From NCBI RefSeq assembly GCF_026627425.1, contig NZ_JAPNLH010000005.1, forward strand, positions 62,001-126,000: a stretch of 64,000 nt of DNA. The letters run 5' to 3'. Source of the stretch: Arthrobacter endolithicus (GTDB lineage: Bacteria; Actinomycetota; Actinomycetes; Actinomycetales; Micrococcaceae). The notes beneath the pieces were generated by a model that was not told the DNA's origin, made no database searches, and was given only the letters and a program-made list of their open reading frames with translations. How positions within the stretch are numbered: the stretch's first letter is position 1; each line of letters starts with the position of its first letter. Shown in pieces: positions 9,531 to 64,000 of this stretch. Position numbers and translations under genes: made by a program.

Positions 9531-9672
9531 GTGGACCTGCGCTGCATTGCCTGGGCCCCGTGGACCTGCGCTGCATTGCCTGGGCCCCGTGGACCTGCGC
9601 TGCATATTGTCTGGATCGGGCGGACCTGCGCCGGCCGGTGTCTGGGTCTGGCGTGACCTGCACCGGCCGGGT
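9531..9672. repeat. Degenerate tandem repeat, about 29-32 bp unit, between treX and treY
   Basis: Two perfect 29-bp copies (9531-9559 and 9560-9588) start with GTGGACCTGCGCTGCATTGC and are followed by three decaying copies beginning near 9589, 9620 and 9652. All share the core G(G)ACCTGC(G/A)C. There is no spacer between units. The patch fills almost the whole intergenic region downstream of treX on the minus strand. Confidence 0.85.
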
Positions 9673-9675
9673 AGA

Positions 9676-11868
9676 TCAGCCCGCAGCCGCTACTTCAGCC
9701 GCGGTGTTAACCCGGTCTGCCAGCGAAGCGGCCACCGAGTGGTCCGGCTCCTCCTCGGGAGCGGAGTAAGCCCGTAGAACCATCATCGTCTTGGCGGAAA
9801 TCGTCAGTTGTTGGCCGCCATCGAGCGTCACGGCGTCTTCGGCATGCTCGCCGGCCGTGTCAATGACCACCTCCCACTTCTGCGCATAATCTCCGACCGG
9901 CAGGGTCAGGTCCACCGGGTCGACGTTGGCGTTGAAGTACAGCAGGAAATTCACATCAGTGATCTGCCGCCCACGGGTGTCAATGCCGATGATGGCGTCG
10001 CCGTTGTAGAAAACTCCCACGGTACGGTCCAGCCCGGTGTCCCAGTCTTCCGGCTTCATTTCCCTGCCATCAGCGTTCAGCCAGACGATGTCCGGAAGCG
10101 CCTCGCCTTCACCCCGAAGGACCGGGCGGCCATCAAAGAAGCGGCTGCGCCGGAAGGTGGGATGGTCGGCACGGAGCCGGTTGACGGCTGCGGTGAACTC
10201 CACCAGCGGAGAATCCATCGAATCCCAGTGAATCCAGCTCAGCTCGGAATCCTGGCAGTAAGTGTTGTTATTTCCCTGCTGGGTCCGCCCCAGTTCGTCA
10301 CCGTGCAGCAGCATCGGGACACCCTGCGAGAGCAGCAGCGTGGCAATGAGGTTCCGCTGCTGGCGGGCGCGCAGTGCAAGTACCTCCGGATCCTCGGTGG
10401 GACCCTCCACCCCGCAGTTCCACGAGCGGTTGTGGGATTCGCCGTCGTTATTGTCCTCGCCATTGGCCTCGTTGTGCTTTTCGTTATAGGAGACAAGGTC
10501 TGCGATGGTGAAGCCGTCGTGGGCGGTCACGAAGTTAATCGATGCCACCGGCCTGCGTCCGTCATTTTCGTACAGATCGGCAGAACCAGTAAGCCTCGAA
10601 GCAAATTCGCCCAGCGTGGCTGGCTCGCCACGCCAGAAATCGCGGACCGTGTCGCGATACTTGCCGTTCCACTCCGTCCACTGCGGCGGGAAATTGCCCA
10701 CTTGGTAGCCGCCTGGACCGATGTCCCATGGCTCGGCAATGAGCTTGACCTGCGAGACCACGGGATCCTGCTGGATGAGCTCGAAAAAGGTCGACAGTTT
10801 ATCAACGTCGTAGAATTCCCGGGCCAGCGTGGATGCCAGATCGAACCGGAAGCCGTCCACATGCATTTCCGTGACCCAGTACCGCAGCGAGTCCATCAGC
10901 AACTGCAGGGCGTGCGGGTTGCGCACATTGAGCGAATTGCCCGTGCCGGTGTAGTCCATGTAGTGCTTTTCGTCGTTGTCCATCAGACGGTAGTAGGCAG
11001 CGTTGTCGATGCCGCGGAAGGACAGCGTGGGGCCCAGGTGGTTACCTTCCGCTGTGTGGTTATAGACCACGTCGAGGATGACCTCGATGCCGGCCAGATG
11101 GAGAGCCCGCACCATGGCCTTAAAATCCTGCACCTGCTGGCCCAGATCACCGGTGGAGCTGTACTCATTGTGTGGTGCGAAAAAGCCGATGGTGTTGTAG
11201 CCCCAGTAGTTTTTCAGTCCCTGGTCCAGCAGCGTGCTGTCCTGCACAAACTGGTGGACCGGCATCAGCTCGATGGCCGTAATGCCAAGCTTCTGCAGGT
11301 GTTCAATCACCACAGGATGGGCGACGCCGGCATAGGTACCGCGCTGTTCCTCGGGAATTTCCGGATGCAGCTGCGTCAGGCCCTTGACGTGTGCTTCGTA
11401 AATAACCGAACGGTGATAAGGAGTACGCGGCGAGCGGTCGCCATCCCAGTCGAAGAAGGGATTTATTACGACCCCGAGCATCATGTGCGGAGCGGAATCC
11501 TCGTCATTGCGCGAATCCGGATCCCCTAAATTGTAGGAAAAGAGCGCCGGCTCCCAGTCAATTGTCCCTGAAACGGCCTTAGCGTAAGGATCCAGCAGCA
11601 ATTTGTTCGGGTTGCAGCGCTGGCCCAGCTCAGGGTTATACGGGCCCGTAACCCGGTAGCCGTATTTCTGCCCAGGCTGGATCTGCGGCAGATAGCAGTG
11701 CCAGACGTAACCGTCCACCTCGGTGACGTCGACGCAGGTCTGCGTGCCGTCGTCGTCAAAGAGGCACAGTTGGACGGAGTCGGCCATGTCGCTGAACAGT
11801 GCAAAATTGGTGCCGTTGCCATCAAAGGTGGCTCCCAGCGGGTAGGCGTTTCCCGGCCAAACTTCCAT
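9676..11868 (-). CDS. treX: Glycogen debranching enzyme TreX/GlgX (isoamylase type)
   Basis: This 730-residue GH13 protein hydrolyses alpha-1,6 branches of glycogen, freeing linear maltodextrins for TreY. It has an N-terminal CBM48 segment (YPLGATFDGNGTNFALFS), then DVVYNHTAEG, VDGFRFDLAS with the nucleophile Asp, IAEPWDIGPGGYQVG with the acid Glu, and FVTAHDGFTIADLVSYNEKHN. I start at the ATG at 11868 because AGGAG precedes it by 5 bases; an upstream ATG at 11895 has no such site. It lies 76 bp after nnr. The treX name is chosen from context; glgX is an equal synonym. Confidence 0.94.
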   Translation of the reverse strand: MEVWPGNAYPLGATFDGNGTNFALFSDMADSVQLCLFDDDGTQTCVDVTEVDGYVWHCYLPQIQPGQKYGYRVTGPYNPELGQRCNPNKLLLDPYAKAVSGTIDWEPALFSYNLGDPDSRNDEDSAPHMMLGVVINPFFDWDGDRSPRTPYHRSVIYEAHVKGLTQLHPEIPEEQRGTYAGVAHPVVIEHLQKLGITAIELMPVHQFVQDSTLLDQGLKNYWGYNTIGFFAPHNEYSSTGDLGQQVQDFKAMVRALHLAGIEVILDVVYNHTAEGNHLGPTLSFRGIDNAAYYRLMDNDEKHYMDYTGTGNSLNVRNPHALQLLMDSLRYWVTEMHVDGFRFDLASTLAREFYDVDKLSTFFELIQQDPVVSQVKLIAEPWDIGPGGYQVGNFPPQWTEWNGKYRDTVRDFWRGEPATLGEFASRLTGSADLYENDGRRPVASINFVTAHDGFTIADLVSYNEKHNEANGEDNNDGESHNRSWNCGVEGPTEDPEVLALRARQQRNLIATLLLSQGVPMLLHGDELGRTQQGNNNTYCQDSELSWIHWDSMDSPLVEFTAAVNRLRADHPTFRRSRFFDGRPVLRGEGEALPDIVWLNADGREMKPEDWDTGLDRTVGVFYNGDAIIGIDTRGRQITDVNFLLYFNANVDPVDLTLPVGDYAQKWEVVIDTAGEHAEDAVTLDGGQQLTISAKTMMVLRAYSAPEEEPDHSVAASLADRVNTAAEVAAAG

Positions 11869-22834: not shown

Positions 22835-23845
22835 TTAGAGCTCGTCGTCGCTGAACGCGTCGTCATTCTCATCGAGGGCTGCGGCACGTGCTGCAAGGTC
22901 GAACCCTGGAGGGGAATCCTTCAGGGACAGACCGAGCTCAACAAGCTTTGCCTTGACCTCGTCGATGGACTTGGCACCGAAGTTCCGAATGTCCATCAGG
23001 TCCGCCTCGGAGCGGGCAACGAGTTCACCCACGGCGTGGATGCCCTCACGCTTGAGGCAATTGTAGGAACGGACCGTGAGGTCCAGATCCTCGATCGGCA
23101 ACGCCATATCGGCAGCCAGCGCCGCGTCCGTCGGGGACGGCCCGATCTCGATACCTTCTGCTGCGGTATTGAGTTCGCGGGCCAAGCCGAACAGCTCAAC
23201 GAGCGTCGTGCCGGCCGAGGCAATGGCATCGCGGGGGGCGATCGCCTGCTTGGTCTCCACATCAACGACCAGGCGGTCGAAGTCGGTGCGCTGCTCCACG
23301 CGGGTGGCTTCCACGCGGAACGTCACCTTCAGGACCGGCGAGTAGATGGAATCGACCGGGATACGGCCAATTTCCGAATCACCGGACTTGTTCTGGGCTG
23401 CCGATACATAGCCGCGGCCGCGCTCGATGGTCAGCTCGAGCTCGAACTTACCCTTCGAGTTCAAGGTGGCAATGTGCAGATCCGGGTTGTGGAATTCCAC
23501 TCCGGCCGGCGGAGCAATGTCCGCAGCCGTGACGACACCGGGACCCTGCTTGCGCAGGTAGGCCACGACGGGCTCGTCGTGTTCGGAGGAAACCGAGAGG
23601 TTCTTGATGTTCAGGATGATCTCGGTGACATCTTCCTTAACACCGGGAACGGTAGTGAATTCGTGCAGCACGCCATCGATCCGGATGCTGGTGACAGCGG
23701 CTCCGGGAATGGAGGACAGCAGGGTACGGCGGAGAGAATTTCCAAGGGTGTAACCAAAACCGGGCTCCAAGGGTTCAATGACGAAACGGGAGCGGTTATC
23801 GGATACTACTTCTTCGGAGAGGGTGGGGCGCTGTGCAATGAGCAC
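22835..23845 (-). CDS. rpoA: DNA-directed RNA polymerase subunit alpha
   Basis: RpoA (336 residues, GTG start after GAAAGGAAA) has the N-terminal dimerisation domain with [20 protein letters not shown] and a C-terminal DNA-binding domain with [30 protein letters not shown] (given in part). Its acidic tail [12 protein letters not shown] is usual in this group. It runs between rpsK and rplQ; rpsD, found next to rpoA in many bacteria, is not here. Confidence 0.98.
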
Positions 23846-23918
23846 TGGGGGTTTCCTTTCAGCGAGCGTCCGCTATATGACGCAACACAGGTGGTGGAAA
23901 GAGCTGTCTACGTCTTAA

Positions 23919-23990
23919 CGCCCGGAGAGTTGGCCCGTCCCGGGCCGCTCCGATATGCAATCGGGCGGCTGGGGCGGGCCAACTCGGGCG
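23919..23990. other. Long-range hairpin between rpsK and rpoA
   Basis: An 11-bp perfect stem (23927-23937 with 23975-23985), continued after a small bulge by CGCCC/GGGCG, occupies half of the 152-bp gap. There is no U tract after it. Possible roles are RNA processing, transcript stabilisation or control of rpoA. Confidence 0.6.
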
Positions 23991-23997
23991 TCACGGC

Positions 23998-24399
23998 TTA
24001 GACGCGGCGGCGCTTGGGCGGACGGCAGCCGTTATGGGCGCTGGGGGTGACATCCTGAATGGAGCCCACCTCAAGGCCTGCGGCCTGCAAGGAACGGATT
24101 GCAGTCTCGCGTCCAGATCCCGGACCCTTCACGAAAACGTCTACCTTCCGCATACCGTGCTCCTGAGCGCGCTTGGCAGCAGCCTCGGCGGCCATCTGCG
24201 CTGCGAACGGGGTGGACTTGCGTGAACCCTTGAATCCAACCTCGCCGGATGAAGCCCAGGAAATAACGGCTCCATTGGGATCCGTGATGGAAACGATGGT
24301 GTTGTTGAACGTGCTCTTGATGTGCGCCTGACCAAGCGCGATATTCTTTTTGTCCTTCTTGCGCGGCTTGCGAACCGCACCGCGAGTCTTCGGGGGCAT
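23998..24399 (-). CDS. rpsK: 30S ribosomal protein S11
   Basis: S11 (133 residues) lies on the platform of the small subunit. It shows [43 protein letters not shown] and the C-terminal [12 protein letters not shown]. The ATG follows TAGGAGAA. It sits 51 bp after rpsM. Confidence 0.98.
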
Positions 24400-51549: not shown

Positions 51550-54500
51550 CTAAACCTCTTCGACAGAGTTCGGCTCGGCCCGTGAAAGGTCGATGCCCAG
51601 TTCCTCCGCTGCCCGGAAGACTTCTTCATCCGAGTCACGCATCTCAATCGTGGTGCCGTCGGTGGAAAGCACTTCCACGTTCAGGCACAGCGACTGCATT
51701 TCCTTGATCAGAACCTTGAAGGATTCGGGGATGCCCGGCTCCGGAATGTTCTCACCCTTAACGATCGCCTCGTAGACCTTCACGCGGCCGTGAATATCAT
51801 CGGACTTAATCGTCAGCAGTTCCTGCAGCGTGTATGCCGCGCCATAGGCCTCCAGAGCCCACACTTCCATCTCACCAAAGCGCTGTCCGCCGAACTGCGC
51901 CTTACCGCCCAAGGGCTGCTGGGTGATCATGGAGTACGGACCGGTGGAGCGGGCGTGGATCTTGTCGTCCACCAAGTGGTGAAGCTTGAGGATGTACATG
52001 TAGCCCACCGAAATCGGGTCCGGGAACTGCTCGCCCGAGCGGCCGTCGAAGAGCACGGTCTTACCGGAGGAATCGATCAGCCGCACACCGTCACGGGTGA
52101 GCGTGGTCGAATCGAGCAGACCGGTGATCTCTTCTTCACGTGCGCCGTCGAACACCGGGGTGGCAACCGTCGTCTGACCGGAAACCCGGGGCAGATTCGG
52201 CAGGTTCTTGACCCATTCCGGATCTCCCTCGATGTTCCAACCGGTCTTCGCGACCCAGCCGAGGTGTGTTTCCAGCACCTGGCCGACGTTCATCCGGCCC
52301 GGAACACCCAGCGGGTTGAGCACGATGTCAACCGGCGTACCATCGGCCAGGAACGGCATGTCCTCGATCGGCAGGATCTTGGAGATGACGCCCTTGTTAC
52401 CGTGGCGGCCGGCCAGCTTGTCACCGTCGGTGATCTTACGCTTGTTGGCCACGTAAATGCGCACCAGCTGATTAACGCCCGGAGGCAGCTCGTCGTCGGA
52501 ATCGCGGTCGAAGATCCGGACACCAATGACGGTACCGGACTCGCCGTGCGGAACCTTCAGCGACGTGTCGCGGACTTCCCGGCTCTTCTCGCCGAAGATG
52601 GCGCGCAGCAGGCGCTCTTCCGGCGTCAGCTCCGTCTCACCCTTGGGCGTGACCTTCCCGACCAGGATGTCGCCTGCCTCAACCTCGGCACCGATGTGGA
52701 TGATGCCGCGTTCGTCCAGTCCGGCGAGGATCTCCTCGGAGACGTTCGGAATGTCACGGGTGATTTCCTCGGCACCAAGCTTGGTGTCGCGGGCATCGAT
52801 TTCATGCTCTTCGATGTGAATGGAAGACAGAACGTCCTCGGCCACGATGCGCTGGCTGAGAATGATCGCGTCCTCGTAGTTATGCCCTTCCCAGGACATA
52901 AACGCGACGAGCAGGTTCTTACCCAGTGCCAGCTCACCTTGATCCGTGGCGGGACCGTCGGCAATGATGCCGCCGACTTCCAGCCGCAGGCCCTCCGAGA
53001 CCAGGACGCGCTGGTTGTACGCGGTGCCCTGGTTGGAGCGGTTGTACTTGGCGATCGGGTAGTTCGTCTCGGTGCCGTCGTCGTTAAGCATGACGACGAG
53101 ATCGGCCGAAACCTCGGAAACCACGCCCGCCTTTTTGGCGATGACGACGTCGCCGGCGTCCACCGCGGTCGCACGCTCCATGCCGGTGCCCACGAAGGGA
53201 GCCTCGGAACGGACCAGCGGCACGGCCTGACGCTGCATATTCGCACCCATCAGGGCGCGGTTGGCGTCGTCATGCTCCAGGAACGGAATAAGCGCGGTAG
53301 CCACCGACACCATCTGGCGCGGGGACACGTCCATGTACTCAACCTCAGCGGCCGGAATCAGCACCGGCTCGCCGCCGCCGCCGCGCTGGCGGACCAGGAC
53401 GGTTTCCTCGGCGAAATCGCTTGTTGCCGTCAGCGGCGCGTTGGCCTGGGCAATAACGACCTCAACCTCGTCATCGGCGGTAAGGTAATCGACGTCGTCG
53501 CTCACATGGCCGTTGAAGACCTTGCGGTACGGCGTCTCAATGAAGCCAAACGGGTTGATCCGGCCGTAGGAGGCCAGCGAGCCGATCAGCCCAATGTTCG
53601 GGCCTTCAGGGGTTTCAATCGGGCACATGCGTCCGTAGTGCGACGGGTGGACGTCGCGGACTTCCATGCCGGCGCGGTCACGGGACAGACCACCCGGGCC
53701 CAGCGCGGAAAGACGGCGTTTGTGCGTCAGACCGGCCAGCGGGTTGTTCTGGTCCATGAACTGCGACAGCTGGGACGTTCCGAAGAACTCCTTGATGGCT
53801 GCTACGACCGGGCGGATATTGATCAGGGTCTGCGGCGTAATCGCTTCGACATCCTGGGTCGTCATGCGCTCACGGACAACGCGTTCCATCCGGGAAAGTC
53901 CCGTGCGGACCTGGTTCTCGATCAGTTCGCCGACTGCGCGGATGCGGCGGTTACCGAAGTGGTCGATGTCGTCTGTCTCGACACGGAGCTCGTGCTCCTT
54001 GCCGTCACGCTTGCCGGCCAATGTCTTGTCACCGTTGTGCAGTGCAACGAGGAATTTGATCATCGCAACGATGTCGTCGATATCCAGGACGGAGGCATCC
54101 TCGGAGTTCAGCGCCTTGTCGATGCCCAGCTTGCGGTTGATCTTGTAGCGGCCAACCTTGGCCAGATCGTAGCGCTTCGGGTTGAAGTACAGATTGTGCA
54201 GCAGCGCGTCAGCGGCCTCGACTGTGGGCGGCTCGCCCGGTCGCAGCTTCCGGTAGATGTCCAGCAAGGCATCTTCACGGGTCACGGTAGTGTCTTTTTC
54301 CATCGTGGCGCGAATGGAGTCGTACTGGCCGAATTCCTCGAGGATCTGGCCCTCGCTCCAGCCCAGTGCCTTCAGCAGGACCGTGACCGACTGCTTGCGC
54401 TTGCGGTCAAGGCGGACGCCGACCTGGTCGCGCTTGTCGATCTCTAGTTCAAACCAGGCACCGCGGGACGGAATGATCTTGGCGGTGAAGATGTCCTTGT

Positions 54501-55083
54501 CGCTGGTCTTGTCCGCGGTGCGCTCGAAGTAAGCACCCGGGGAGCGGACCAGCTGGGAGACAACGACGCGCTCGGTACCGTTGATGACGAAGGTACCCTT
54601 CTCCGTCATCAACGGGAAGTCCCCCATGAACACCGTCTGCTGCTTGATCTCGCCGGTGTTATTGTTCATGAACTCGGCCTTGACATACAGCGGAGCCGCA
54701 AACGTTGCGTCGCGGTCCTTGCACTCGGCCATGGTGTACTTGGGATCGGAGAACTCCGGCTCCGAGAACGACAGGGACATGGTGCCCTGGAAGTCCTCGA
54801 TCGGGGAGATCTCTTCGAAGATATCCGCCAAGCCCGAGGTGGTGGCGACACTCTGGTCCCCGGACTTCACGGCGGTGTCCATCCGCGACTGCCAGCGCTC
54901 ATTGCCGACGAGCCAGTCAAAGCTCTCGGTCTGCAGGGCAAGCAGATTCGGAACGTCCAGCGGCTCGTGAATCTTGGCGAATGAGATACGACGCGTGGCA
55001 CCGTCGGTGCTGGTGGTATCAATAGCGGTTGTAGCACTGTTTGCAGTAGCGCTGTTTACATTAGAGGTGCTCGAGGCGACCAA
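51550..55083 (-). CDS. rpoB: DNA-directed RNA polymerase subunit beta
   Basis: RpoB (about 1177 residues) is complete, with [37 protein letters not shown] (ends shown) as the rifampicin pocket; the Asp, His and Ser most often changed in resistance are wild type. I start at the TTG at 55083, because GGAAGG lies 7 bases before it and [15 protein letters not shown] is the usual N-terminus of the group. A GTG at 55098 would overlap that ribosome site. An IS element lies upstream at about 260 bp. Confidence 0.98.
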
Positions 55084-55250
55084 GAGGGATCCTTCCACAG
55101 ACCTTCAGGCGTGTTCTGCGCAACCCTTACCGTTCTTCGAACTGATTCGACGCCAAACTGACCAGCTGCATTCGGCGAATACAACTGATTTCATGGCAAA
55201 GCCCACCGCTATATGAAGGCTGAAGGTTAAGAGGGGAGACGCAAAGTTCC

Positions 55251-55280
55251 ACGATACGGCAAAGGGCGGCCCCTGTCCAA
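55251..55280 (-). promoter_or_regulatory. Candidate rpoB promoter
   Basis: TTGGAC (55275-55280) and TATCGT (55251-55256) with an 18-base spacer lie about 170 bp upstream of rpoB on the minus strand. A second -10-like box, TATGAT (55291-55296), lies nearer to the IS. Both are within 95 bp of the IS end at 55342. Confidence 0.45.
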
Positions 55281-55341
55281 TGGACTGTCCATCATACGCC
55301 CCGACTCCCCGTTTTGCGAGCAGACGACGAGACTCATCTAA

Positions 55342-56707
55342 TGTGCTCGCGAAATGGGGCGCGTGCCGCATTTGAGAAATGCTCGCGAAATCTCTGGTCA
55401 CGGCCGGGCACTGTTGCTGTGCTGGAGGGATGGGTTATGGGTTGACGTTGTCTGCGCGCAGGGAAATCACGAAGAAGGAAGCTGCGGAGTATTTCCGGGC
55501 TTCGAAGAAGGGCCGCGGGGAGATTCTGGACCGCTTAGTCACCGAGGTTGGCTGGTCTCGGGCCAATGCCCGCCGCCAGCTCCACAACGCGCTGATCCGA
55601 CGTGGACCGGCCTGCGTGGTGAAACGCAAGCCCCGACCGCGCAGCTACAGCTATGACACCGTGCTGGTGCTGCAACGGGTCTGGGTGATCGCCGGGCAAC
55701 CCTGCGGGAAGTACCTTGCTCCGGCCATGGCAGCCACACTGGCGAACATGGGGTCCCATGTCGGCACCGGGTCTTTCGGACCTGCGCGCATCCGCTACAG
55801 TCCGGGCGTGCGGGAGCAGTTGCTGGCCATGAGCGCAGCGACCATCGATCGGCTGCTGGCACCGTACAAGCTCAAGCTTTACCCAGACGGGAAGTCCACA
55901 ACCAGATCCCGAAAGAACCGTCACACCGAGCAGATTCCGATCATGACTCGCATCCCAGTGATCGACCGACAACCAGGATTGGTGGCCATCGATACCGTCG
56001 CTCATTGTGGAAACACGGCCAAGGGCCAATACGCCTTTACGCTCACGGTGACCGATCCGTTCACTGGCTGGACGGTGAATCTGGCCATCAAGAACAAAGC
56101 CTCCAAATGGGTTGCCCAAGCCTTGGCCGAAATCCAGCAGCAGTTCCCGTACCCGATCGATCATTTGCATAGTGACAACGGTTCAGAATTTCTCAATGAC
56201 CCCGTCGCTGACTGGGCTGATAGCCAGAACATCCGCATGACCCGCTCCCGGCCCCACCACTCCAACGACAACCCATTCGTGGAGCAAAAGAACGGAGATA
56301 TCGTGCGCCGCTCAGCGTTCAACTACCGCTACGACACCGACGCCGAACTGGCCCTGCTCAACGAGCTCTGGCCGCTAGTGAACCTGCGCAAGAACCTGTT
56401 CCTGCCCACGAAGAAAGCCATCGGCTACCGGCTAACCCGCACCGGCAAACACGTCCGTGACTACGATGCGCCCCGCACCCCTGCGGACCGAGTCAAGGAC
56501 ACCGGCATCATGCTGCCGCCGGAGCGTGCAGCCTTGGAAGAGCTCTACCGAACCGTTGATTTGGCTGCCTTGACCCGACGGATCGTGGATATCCAAGACC
56601 AGCTCATCCGACTGGCTGCAGCCAAGACTCACTCCCAATCAACACGGGTGGCCTAACGATTTCGCGAGCACTTTAGGTGAGGCACGCGGAATTCATTTGG
56701 CGAGCAT
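55342..56707. mobile_element. Insertion sequence, about 1.37 kb, with double-motif terminal inverted repeats
   Basis: The two ends align as imperfect inverted repeats of about 50 bp. Each has two copies of TGCTCGC(G/C)AAAT: left near 55344 and 55380, right near 56659-56670 and 56695-56706. A single DD35E transposase fills the middle. The exact ends and a target-site duplication could not be fixed by eye (ATCT is found beside both ends). It lies between the thiolase gene and rpoB. Confidence 0.85.
55430..56656 (+). CDS. IS transposase with DD35E integrase core
   Basis: This 408-residue protein has an N-terminal helix-turn-helix part (ITKKEAAEYFRASKKGRGE) and an rve catalytic core with Asp in LVAIDTVAH, Asp in HSDNGSEF and Glu in NPFVEQKNG; the last two are 35 residues apart. 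It resembles the roughly 400-residue IS481-like/ISNCY integrase-core transposases; the family is not fixed. I start at ATG 55430 with GGAGGG next to it; an in-frame ATG at 55379 lies inside the terminal repeat. The frame is intact, so it may be active. Confidence 0.9.
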   Translation: MGYGLTLSARREITKKEAAEYFRASKKGRGEILDRLVTEVGWSRANARRQLHNALIRRGPACVVKRKPRPRSYSYDTVLVLQRVWVIAGQPCGKYLAPAMAATLANMGSHVGTGSFGPARIRYSPGVREQLLAMSAATIDRLLAPYKLKLYPDGKSTTRSRKNRHTEQIPIMTRIPVIDRQPGLVAIDTVAHCGNTAKGQYAFTLTVTDPFTGWTVNLAIKNKASKWVAQALAEIQQQFPYPIDHLHSDNGSEFLNDPVADWADSQNIRMTRSRPHHSNDNPFVEQKNGDIVRRSAFNYRYDTDAELALLNELWPLVNLRKNLFLPTKKAIGYRLTRTGKHVRDYDAPRTPADRVKDTGIMLPPERAALEELYRTVDLAALTRRIVDIQDQLIRLAAAKTHSQSTRVA

Positions 56708-56866
56708 CTTGACATGAGGCACCACGGCAGACCGGTGTCCGAATTTAGTGCGGCGCGGGATCCTAGGGAAATAGCCACCGGCCGCAAACTGTTAGATTCT
56801 ATGTGAGCGGCGCCTCAAAGACGATGAGGCTGCTGATTTTTGACGATGAAAGCGAAGTGCCCTTCC

Positions 56867-58075
56867 ATGACCGTAAATTCTTCTGCATCAAATGCCTCTG
56901 ACATCGTGATTCTGGGCGGCGCACGGACGCCCTTTGGCCGGCTGAACGGTCAACTCGGCTCTTTCAGTGCAGTGGAGCTGGGTGCGAAGGCAATCATCGG
57001 CGCCTTGGAACGCGCCGCAGTGGCGGCGGAGCAAGTGGATGCCGTCATCATGGGTCAAGTAATCCAAGCTGGAGCCGGCCAGAATCCAGCCCGTCAGAGT
57101 GCCATTGCAGCCGGAATCGGCTGGGACGTCCCCACCGTCACGATCAATAAAGTGTGCCTCTCCGGGCTGGCCGCCATCACTGATGCAGCACGCCTGATCC
57201 GTTCGGGTGAGGCAACCGTGGTGGTTGCCGGCGGCCAGGAATCCATGAGCAACGGCCCGCACCTGCTGCCCGGCTCCCGGCAGGGCTGGACGTACGGTGA
57301 CATTACCGCCGTCGATTCCGTCGCCAATGACGGGCTGACCGACGCCTTTGATCACGAGTCGATGGGCAGCTCCACCGAGCGGCACAACACCTCCCTCGGC
57401 ATTGACCGCAGCGCCCAGGACGAGGTTGCCGCCGCCTCGCATCAGCGCGCGGCCGCCGCAGCCGAATCGGGAATTTTCGACGACGAAATCGTCCCCGTGG
57501 CGGTTCGGCAGCGCAAGGGCCCGGATCTAACCGTCGCCAAGGACGAAGGCCTGCGGCCGCAGACAACCGTCCAGACACTGGCCGACCTGCGACCGGCCTT
57601 CGCCAAGGACGGCACGATCACGGCAGGGAATTCCTCCCCACTCTCGGACGGTGCTGCCGCGGTCGTGCTCAGCACCCGCGGCTATGCACAGGACAACGGA
57701 CTGTCCTGGCTCGCCGTCGTCGGCAAACCCGGACAGGTCGCAGGACCGGATACTTCACTGCAGTCCCAGCCCTCTAATGCGATTAACAAGGCCCTCAAAC
57801 TGGCCGGCTGGAGCGTGGCGGAGTTGGATTTCATTGAAATCAATGAGGCCTTCGGCGCAGTAGCCGTGCAGTCCTTGAGAGACCTTCACTACCCGTTGGA
57901 GAAGTGCAATATCCACGGCGGAGCGATCTCCATGGGCCATCCGATCGGAGCGTCCGGCGCCCGGCTCGCTCTGCACGCCGCCCAGGAACTGCGGCGCCGG
58001 GGTTCCGGTAAGGCCGCGGTCTCGCTCTGCGGCGGCGGCGGCCAAGGGGAAGCCCTGCTGCTGTACCGGGACTGA
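56867..58075 (+). CDS. Acetyl-CoA acetyltransferase (thiolase II type)
   Basis: The 402-residue protein is a complete thiolase: nucleophile Cys about 97 in INKVCLSGL, NEAFGAVAV, the His in MGHPIGASGAR and the second Cys in SLCGGGGQGEAL. Such enzymes join two acetyl-CoA to acetoacetyl-CoA or cleave 3-ketoacyl-CoA. ATG 56867 is chosen from the alignment-like N-terminus; ATG 56846 would add 7 residues, and neither has a clear ribosome site. It stands alone on the plus strand between rplL and rpoB, with no other fatty-acid or polyhydroxybutyrate genes near. Confidence 0.93.
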   Translation: MTVNSSASNASDIVILGGARTPFGRLNGQLGSFSAVELGAKAIIGALERAAVAAEQVDAVIMGQVIQAGAGQNPARQSAIAAGIGWDVPTVTINKVCLSGLAAITDAARLIRSGEATVVVAGGQESMSNGPHLLPGSRQGWTYGDITAVDSVANDGLTDAFDHESMGSSTERHNTSLGIDRSAQDEVAAASHQRAAAAAESGIFDDEIVPVAVRQRKGPDLTVAKDEGLRPQTTVQTLADLRPAFAKDGTITAGNSSPLSDGAAAVVLSTRGYAQDNGLSWLAVVGKPGQVAGPDTSLQSQPSNAINKALKLAGWSVAELDFIEINEAFGAVAVQSLRDLHYPLEKCNIHGGAISMGHPIGASGARLALHAAQELRRRGSGKAAVSLCGGGGQGEALLLYRD

Positions 58076-58134
58076 GCGGGCCCCGGTCTGCAGTAAAAAG
58101 CTGCACAGCGTCCGGGACGAGCCCAGCGCACGGG

Positions 58135-58175
58135 CTGACCTGCGCAGGGCCCGCGCCCCGCGCTGCGCAGGTCAG
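58135..58175. other. Perfect 13-bp inverted repeat after the thiolase gene
   Basis: CTGACCTGCGCAG (58135-58147) pairs with CTGCGCAGGTCAG (58163-58175) around a 15-base GC loop. It lies 60 bp after the thiolase stop and may be part of its termination. Its core resembles the repeat between treX and treY. Confidence 0.6.
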
Positions 58176-58198
58176 TCCGCTGCAACGCATACCGGATG

Positions 58199-58236
58199 CA
58201 AAGAAGCCCCGCACCAACCGGTGCGGGGCTTCTTTT
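58199..58236. terminator. Bidirectional terminator between the thiolase gene and rplL
   Basis: A perfect 15-bp stem (58201-58215 with 58220-58234) with loop AACC has TTCTTTT on the plus side and CTTCTTTG on the minus side. It stands 16 bp after rplL, ending the rplJ-rplL transcript and separating it from rpoB. Confidence 0.88.
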
Positions 58237-58251
58237 ACGCAGGGGTAACTG

Positions 58252-58626
58252 TTACTTGAGGGTAACTGTTGCGCCGGCTGCTTCCAGGGATTCCTTTGCC
58301 TTCTCGGCAGCTTCCTTGGTCGCACCTTCAAGAACGGCCTTCGGTGCGGAGTCGACGACGTCCTTGGCTTCCTTCAGTCCGAGGGAGGTCAGGGCGCGCA
58401 CCTCCTTGATGACGGCAATCTTCTTGTCGCCGGCAGCTTCGAGGATGACGTCGAAGGAATCCTTCTCGACCTCTTCCTCAGCGGCACCGCCCGCGGGGCC
58501 GGCGACGGCAACGGCCGCGGCGGTGACCTCGAAGGTCTCCTCGAAGACCTTGACGAACTCGGAGAGCTCGATGATGGTCAGTTCCTTGAAAGCTGCGATG
58601 AGCTCGTCGTTGGTGAGCTTAGCCAT
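58252..58626 (-). CDS. rplL: 50S ribosomal protein L7/L12
   Basis: L7/L12 (124 residues) forms the stalk that recruits GTPase factors. It starts [21 protein letters not shown], has an Ala/Gly hinge and ends with the C-terminal domain [21 protein letters not shown] ... [13 protein letters not shown]. It follows rplJ after 99 bp. Confidence 0.98.
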
Positions 58627-63946: not shown

Positions 63947-64000
63947 CAGGGCAGACAGGACTCGAACCTGCAACCTGCGGTTTTGGAGACCGCTGCGCTA
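63947..64000 (-). tRNA. tRNA-Trp (CCA anticodon), 5' end cut by the window
   Basis: On the minus strand the anticodon loop CTCCAAAA shows CCA, the T arm is GCAGG-TTCGAAT-CCTGT, and the 3' acceptor strand CTGCCCT with discriminator G ends at 63947. The 5' acceptor strand (about 7 bases) falls outside the window. The gene does not encode the full CCA end. tRNA-Trp before secE-nusG is a usual order. Confidence 0.92.

Follow-up and report, generated by a model that had tools for sequence, protein, structure and literature searches.

The window analysed here is a stretch of 64,000 nucleotides from Arthrobacter endolithicus (contig NZ_JAPNLH010000005.1, positions 62,001–126,000, forward strand). 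Within this window, an insertion sequence (IS) lies in the gap between rpoB and a divergently oriented thiolase gene, and the rpoB leader adjacent to the IS carries a hairpin whose 8-nt loop recurs in the leader of rpoA (Table 1). The outermost bases of the IS, CGACGAGACTCA and CATGAGGCACCACG, were set by comparison with sibling copies in the same genome, as homology ends at these bases and the flanks are unrelated. An initial annotation had placed the element at 55084–56707, with inverted ends of about 50 bp. The element is real, but the left part of that interval is rpoB upstream DNA common to relatives, and these boundaries were thus rejected; similarly, inverted ends are present, but they can be aligned over about 68 bp and are imperfect. 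A perfect 5 bp direct repeat flanks the IS. A longer, imperfect target duplication was also considered and rejected, because the sibling copies fix the ends and exactly 5 bp remain.

Table 1. Coordinates of the features under discussion, counted from the first base of the window.
Feature	Position	Strand	Remarks
rpoA	22835–23845	−	336 aa; GTG start at 23845
rpoA leader hairpin	23866–23883	−	GCGUC-AUAUAGCG-GACGC; loop 23871–23878
rpoB	51550–55083	−	likely TTG start at 55083; GGAAGGA at 55090–55096
rpoB leader hairpin	55201–55220	−	GCCUUC-AUAUAGCG-GUGGGC; loop 55207–55214; in 65/65 rpoB regions; no Rfam match
rpoB −10 box	55251–55256	−	TATCGT; family-conserved
rpoB −35 box	55274–55279	−	TGGACA; family-conserved
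Target duplication, left copy	55320–55324		GCAGA; perfect 5 bp direct repeat
Insertion sequence	55325–56726	+	1,402 bp; ends CGACGAGACTCAT...ATGAGGCACCACG; delimited by sibling-copy homology and empty sites in G003 and G004
Left terminal inverted repeat	55325–55392		imperfect; carries TGCTCGCGAAAT twice (55344, 55380)
Transposase	55379–56656	+	425 aa; rve domain; DD35E
Right terminal inverted repeat	56658–56726		imperfect
Target duplication, right copy	56727–56731		GCAGA; perfect 5 bp direct repeat
Thiolase (acetyl-CoA acyltransferase) gene	56867–58075	+	divergent to rpoB; between rplL and rpoB
rplL	58252–58626	−	

The transposase matches the Pfam rve domain (49.3 bits versus a cut-off of 32.6) and has the catalytic residues D205, D266 and E302, with 35 residues between the last two, in agreement with the intact DD35E transposase described initially. 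It is read away from rpoB, towards the thiolase gene. The catalytic domain, the inverted repeats, the target duplication and the empty site in relatives identify the element as an insertion sequence of the DDE/rve type. Membership in three families was considered and rejected. The scores fall short of the NCBIfam cut-offs for the IS481 family (NF033577, 66.2 bits versus 224) and the IS3 family (NF033516, 51.4 bits versus 160). According to a published description (PMC10132070), transposases of the IS1202 family have a Q seven positions after the catalytic E, two N-terminal helix-turn-helix domains and a TnsB-like fold, and elements of the ISAjo2 subgroup are about 1.3–1.75 kb long, generate duplications of 3–5 bp and have the outer ends 5'-TGT...ACA-3'. 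The IS resembles this subgroup in its single DDE transposase, its length, its 5 bp duplication and a repeated internal end motif, but its outer ends are 5'-CGAC and 5'-CGTG, and a V is found at +7 after the catalytic E (EQKNGDIV). Because it departs from the IS1202 family in these two features, as given in that source, the IS was left unclassified.

Relatives of the transposase were found in named Micrococcaceae-type genomes at 64–76% protein identity (16 loci, five of them full length at 73–76%), and three IS relatives, L040, L044 and L045, are bounded by the 5 bp repeats GAGCC, GGATC and TAAAT, respectively. Three of the five full-length relatives, one from an Arthrobacter metagenome-assembled genome (L041) and two from records titled Mycobacterium (L042 and L043), are nearly one sequence: identity to L041 is 99.98% over 4,465 bases for L043 and 100% over 3,131 bases for L042. 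The Mycobacterium-titled records were therefore rejected as independent hosts and the sequence was counted once; the near-identity may reflect contamination or one very recent spread. Plasmid relatives were found in 279 records, all with less than 60% protein identity. Among the matches listed (20 of 279), DDE-type or ISNCY-labelled transposases on actinobacterial and rhizobial plasmids cover 88–96% of the query but share only 33–46% protein identity with it, some of them being annotated as ISNCY. No relatives were found in the viral contigs searched.

A search of the host genome with the IS returned one full copy, 11 end pieces at contig ends (80–87% identity; six left and five right ends of a sibling IS) and three shorter fragments. 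Two putative left/right pairs of the sibling, the middle of which is not on these contigs, share the 5-mers ATCCG and GAGGT, which suggests that the sibling IS also makes 5 bp duplications. The few duplications read, from the IS, its sibling and its relatives, have no common target. Additionally, since the contig ends concerned (L002–L012) bear left or right ends of this multi-copy sibling, it probably broke the assembly.

Comparison of the locus within the genus covered five genomes, the host and four others (G001–G004), with one genome per species, and the rpoB upstream flank was matched in all four of the others. Two of these lack the IS at the site. On the rpoB side, G004 is 95% identical to the window over 417 bases and G003 is 94% identical over 404 bases; in both, the left flank passes into the right one, leaving 11 (G004) and 34 (G003) bases unaligned. 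At the insertion point, G004 has GCAGG and the window GCAGA. Since both carry the empty site, the insertion is most simply later than the split from G003 and G004. G002 holds other genes at the insertion point, with open frames including a molybdopterin oxidoreductase gene between rpoB and thiolase, approximately 0.3–4.3 kb upstream of rpoB, and G001 is more distant. The target duplication, the two empty sites and the relatives with duplications of their own thus bear out the proposal that an element with signs of mobility lies just upstream of the promoter-containing rpoB leader.

The distance from the IS to the likely rpoB start is 241 bp, and its end is 45 bp upstream of the −35 box; the closeness noted initially therefore stands, with corrections to the proposed values of 260 bp and 50–60 bp. 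A promoter scan of 55050–58300 returned one sigma70-like site, TGGACA-N17-TATCGT, at 55279–55251 on the minus strand. In the family, 119 of 120 genomes had a match to the rpoB upstream region, and 65 such regions were aligned: that of the window, those of four genus members and 60 more. They are well conserved between 55280 and 55201, apart from the promoter spacer, and poorly conserved above 55280. Both hexamer regions are conserved among the 65 sequences, and the promoter is intact in the window. Two further observations concern the same region. Shortly past the −10 box, TTTGCG opens the transcript (55251–55238, minus strand), and at the order level 33 of 40 rpoB upstream regions have TTGCG no more than 9 nt away from a TAnnnT box, as do 15 of 20 at the class level. 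The ribosome site of rpoB and its opening codons (55110–55061, minus strand) are near-invariant at the nucleotide level in the 65 genomes, third bases included, which hints at a further constraint on the RNA or DNA.

The gene order around the IS is not peculiar to the window. A thiolase gene is upstream of rpoB in 46 of 64 relatives, always in the opposite direction, and lies between rplL and rpoB in all 38 relatives in which rplL is also in view. Because the thiolase gene separates rplL from rpoB in most relatives read, whether the IS is present or not, the proposal that rpoB depends on a promoter of its own is right, but the IS is not the cause. The view that this is a rare place for an IS is weak for this gap: in 12 of the 46 relatives over 700 bp separate the thiolase gene from rpoB, no thiolase gene is within the stretch read in 18 of the 64, and the neighbours vary. 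Ten upstream open frames scanned with Pfam, a sample of the neighbours that gives no IS insertion rate, comprise a molybdopterin oxidoreductase (L058, the G002 locus), a P-type ATPase (L088), other enzymes, a partial rve transposase (L073) and two frames without a family. The partial transposase, of the same type as that of the window IS, is located approximately 0.8–1.5 kb upstream of rpoB in another family member. An insertion so near rpoB appears to be tolerated, as the conserved control region begins only at the −35 box, and the IS alone, an example of a familiar type in a gap that tolerates insertion, matters little. A literature search found no paper on an insertion sequence upstream of rpoB, in a database with poor coverage of subscription journals.

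The rpoB leader, of approximately 160 nt from the inferred start site, contains a hairpin for which a loose pattern matches exactly once in each of the 65 family rpoB loci. Its 8-nt loop is closed by a C-G pair and is nearly invariant; in an alignment of the rpoB hairpins (A2), the loop, the closing bases and an internal U.U pair hardly vary. Of the six pairs tested in A2, two are invariant and four show two-sided changes, for instance G-C to A-U at the third pair in four sequences. The cells paired, the two-sided cells and the covariation score all exceed those of 500/500 shuffles. The hairpin of L095, which has a longer stem, folds better than shuffles (z −3.75). The rpoB leader as a whole was rejected as a structured RNA, since its folding does not surpass that of shuffles (z 0.26), and a long-range pairing of ACCUUCAG in the leader with CUGAAGGU before the Shine-Dalgarno sequence was rejected because some other genera have UGACGG or UGUUGG with no matching change by eye. 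A second loop of the CATATAGCGG type (CATATGGCGG in L088) occurs downstream of the first in 15 of the 65 leaders (L069, L074–L079, L082, L083, L088, L103–L105, L107 and L122).

A search of 248 order genomes with a model of the rpoB hairpin (R1, E up to 0.01) gave 33 hits, 19 of them in family f1 (probably the Micrococcaceae). The 14 others comprise twelve from f74 and two weak ones from f72 and f76, and all eleven returned f74 loci are at rpoB. This threshold misses some copies, since the f74 genome G433 was not listed and yet its leader (L169) has the loop. An exact 18-mer was too strict a measure of spread (2 of 296 phylum genomes, both f1) and was discarded. The looser loop CAWATDGYGG was applied to rpoB upstream regions from the order (40) and the class (20) and is present in 11 (eight with at least 3/5 outer pairs) and one of them, respectively; the opposite strand gave no match, and shuffles gave 1.3 and 0. 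By family, the loop was found in f74 (2/2), f4 (3/3), f79 (3/3), f72 (2/2, two copies each), f76 (1/2) and f108 (1/1); in f74, f4, f72 and f108 it follows the inferred start of rpoB.

In the window, the rpoA hairpin follows rpsK and stands directly before the Shine-Dalgarno sequence and the GTG start, and its stem is unrelated to that of rpoB. Fifty rpoA leaders were read among the 61 family genomes with rpoA. The loop AWAUDGYG precedes the start in all of them (43 AUAUAGCG, six AUAUGGCG and one AAAUGGCG), and 49 have at least 4/5 stem pairs, with the hairpin 30–35 nt before the start. Outside the family, 40-kb stretches downstream of rpoB were examined in 20 genomes; rpoA was in view in 15 of these (13 families) and not in five. 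The hairpin is present in 15/15 of the leaders so located, mostly at −30 to −37 and once at −75. The loops are AUAUAGCG, AUAUGGCG, AAAUAGCG, AUAUUGCG, AAAUAGUG or AAAUGGUG, the last of which (L333) was seen by eye and missed by the scan. An alignment of these 15 distant hairpins with eight of the 49 family ones, picked for stem diversity (A4), has 88% of its cells paired and two-sided changes at six of eight pairs, a number reached by 5 of 500 shuffles; none of the 500 was as high in cells paired or in covariation score. A U.U beside the closing pair, as in the rpoB copies of A2, is found in three distant and two family rpoA copies. The hairpin was rejected as a terminator, because the U run of an intrinsic terminator is absent right after the rpoA stem of the window, which is followed by UCGCUGAAAGGAAA. 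Upstream of the hairpin, the gap between rpsK and rpoA is filled by an inverted repeat (23927–23985, with 15-nt arms 29 nt apart).

The rpoA and rpoB loops allow the same kinds of substitution. In the host genome, CATATAGCGG occurs at eight sites, one of them at 23879–23870, and at least 4/5 stem pairs are found at rpoA and rpoB only. A widespread signal in this genome was rejected, as the 12-mer TTCATATAGCGG occurs twice and the other copy lies within an open coding frame. Seven genomes, each from a different genus, were searched with the pattern SNNNYATATRGCGRNNNS, which matched 47 places; it demands a G or C at each end, and some stems would escape it. At least 4/5 stem pairs are formed at 16/16 of the rpoA and rpoB sites and at 6/31 of the other loop sites.

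Known RNA families do not account for the hairpin. Rfam 15 gave no match in 54900–56900 up to an E value of 10; across the whole window a tRNA alone reached the gathering score, and around rpoA (23700–24050) there were only sub-threshold hits, mostly to microRNA families. Ten further loci, searched up to an E value of 5, likewise gave no match at gathering score. The microRNA-type hits at rpoA and other loci are below gathering scores and were taken as chance. In L320, an Rfam L17 leader lies at 10763–10819, downstream of the rpoA start region, and the hairpin at 9554–9587. Judged by titles and the beginnings of abstracts, a literature search on rpoA or rpoB leader hairpins, autoregulation and RNA motifs returned nothing on this element, in a collection that mostly excludes subscription papers, and a text search for the loop letters gave, among the matches listed, papers that look unrelated by title and abstract start. 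The hairpin may be assigned to a known class, leader RNA, with a specific element that no Rfam 15 family matches. It differs from the S4, L17 and L10 ribosomal-protein leaders in having a fixed octaloop hairpin before both rpoA and rpoB and no Rfam match. It resembles the S4 alpha-operon and L17 (RF03132) leaders, as presented in the available part of PMC7247131, in being a short covarying RNA before genes of the transcription or translation machinery. That part of the source places rpoA in S4-controlled operons in other phyla and does not mention rpoB.

The interpretation that best accommodates these results, with a probability of roughly 0.75, combines an ordinary passenger insertion that spared the rpoB promoter with a leader hairpin that is shared with rpoA and serves as a cis-acting signal of RNA polymerase genes. 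An rve/DDE element jumped, with a 5 bp duplication, into the gap that separates rpoB from the divergent thiolase gene, landing 45 bp upstream of the −35 box and outside the conserved control region. It most likely leaves rpoB expression about unchanged, since its transposase points away and it lies outside that region. The hairpin, apparently one 8-nt-loop element carried on unrelated stems by the rpoB and rpoA leaders, would be a cis-acting signal for RNA polymerase subunit genes, judging from where it occurs. RNA polymerase may be the common factor, because rpoA and rpoB share the hairpin and their loops allow the same kinds of substitution, and the mechanism tentatively favoured is feedback in which core RNA polymerase, its alpha subunit or a dedicated partner would bind the loop. 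Such feedback on the synthesis of RNA polymerase subunits would be similar to the autogenous control of rpoBC by RNA polymerase in Escherichia coli, for which we know of no hairpin shared by rpoA and rpoB. A slightly bolder and more doubtful version extends to the Actinomycetes: the AWAUDGYG hairpin might be an operator by which RNA polymerase (or alpha, or an assembly or regulatory partner) controls its own subunits, at rpoA throughout and at rpoBC in the Micrococcaceae and several related families.

Several observations weigh against parts of this interpretation. Shuffled sequences yield a mean of 0.7 sigma70-like sites versus the one found, which is about chance level, and support for the rpoB promoter therefore comes from its conservation in relatives. 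In addition, a promoter can be influenced by sequence that lies beyond −60. The rpoB hairpin of the window folds no better than shuffles (z 0.64); a U.U mismatch interrupts its stem, in which about four pairs are confident. In A2, the two outermost pairs tested are mostly unformed, and the number of co-varying pairs and the further pair types were matched by 170 and 187 of 500 shuffles, respectively. The loop was not found in 29/40 order-level and 19/20 class-level rpoB leaders, and in 4 of the 12 loop-bearing ones (L183, L191 and L192 of f79; L182 of f76) it is upstream of the inferred promoter; it would then lie outside that transcript, which counts against these being the same element. For rpoA, the alignment of all 49 family sequences (A3) gives a weaker signal in the same direction (8 two-sided cells, 2 pairs). 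A reversed control of SNNNYATATRGCGRNNNS matched 20 places, and one of the six well-paired sites away from rpoA and rpoB has 5/5 pairs, these six differing in sequence. Finally, the family rpoA hairpin is 30–35 nt from the start codon and the rpoB hairpin a median of 121 nt from the Shine-Dalgarno sequence. One simple mechanism does not fit both distances, which argues against a single ribosome-blocking mechanism.

The same unequal distances suit mRNA processing better than ribosome blocking, and hence processing stays a serious rival, if on balance an unlikely one. The hairpin would then be a processing or stability site for an RNase or RNase adaptor, setting the stoichiometry of the rpoA and rpoB messages without feedback; a variable stem with a fixed loop suits sequence-specific loop recognition, and the location in the rpsK–rpoA gap and the rpoB leader is consistent with this. 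However, the recurring well-paired sites found with one pattern in seven genomes are all at RNA polymerase genes, which is unusual for a general processing signal. That the hairpin is instead an operator for a ribosomal protein, like the S4, L10 and L17 leaders, is improbable. Such an operator should also precede the gene of its own protein, and that pattern revealed no third recurring site in the seven genomes; moreover, no Rfam leader family matches the hairpin, even though one genome (L320) has an L17 leader shortly after the rpoA start region and rpoA belongs to an S4-controlled operon in other phyla, as described in PMC7247131.

A hairpin that needs no trans factor, for example a spacer freeing the rpoA ribosome site, with the rpoB copy as an incidental relative, would fit the position immediately upstream of the rpoA Shine-Dalgarno sequence in the family and the lack of the rpoB loop in most families outside the Micrococcaceae. 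It is slightly less probable again than a ribosomal-protein operator, as a spacer has no need for a fixed 8-nt loop with the same tolerated substitutions in two unrelated leaders. Least probable of all is that the IS alters rpoB transcription, through a promoter inside the IS or the loss of an upstream activating sequence, and that this change was selected. The IS end is only 45 bp from the −35 box and has displaced the original flank, which is 94–95% identical in G003 and G004, but the scan gave no sigma70-like site within the IS oriented towards rpoB, the transposase is read in the other direction, the promoter and leader are intact and family-conserved, and the sequence above 55280 is unconserved across the family.

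If the shared hairpin is a true regulatory element, it is important, as it may help to set the amount of RNA polymerase, and the genes concerned would form a shared RNA regulon of RNA polymerase genes. To our knowledge, the balance of alpha versus beta and beta' in actinobacteria has not been explained by a shared RNA signal. An 8-nt loop that stays fixed across two unrelated leaders also offers a ready bait for a putative binder.

Two minor features lie elsewhere in the window. An inverted repeat after rplL (58203–58232) resembles a terminator stem by eye and was not listed by the scan of 55050–58300, and a tRNA gene (63947–64000, minus strand) is cut by the window end.

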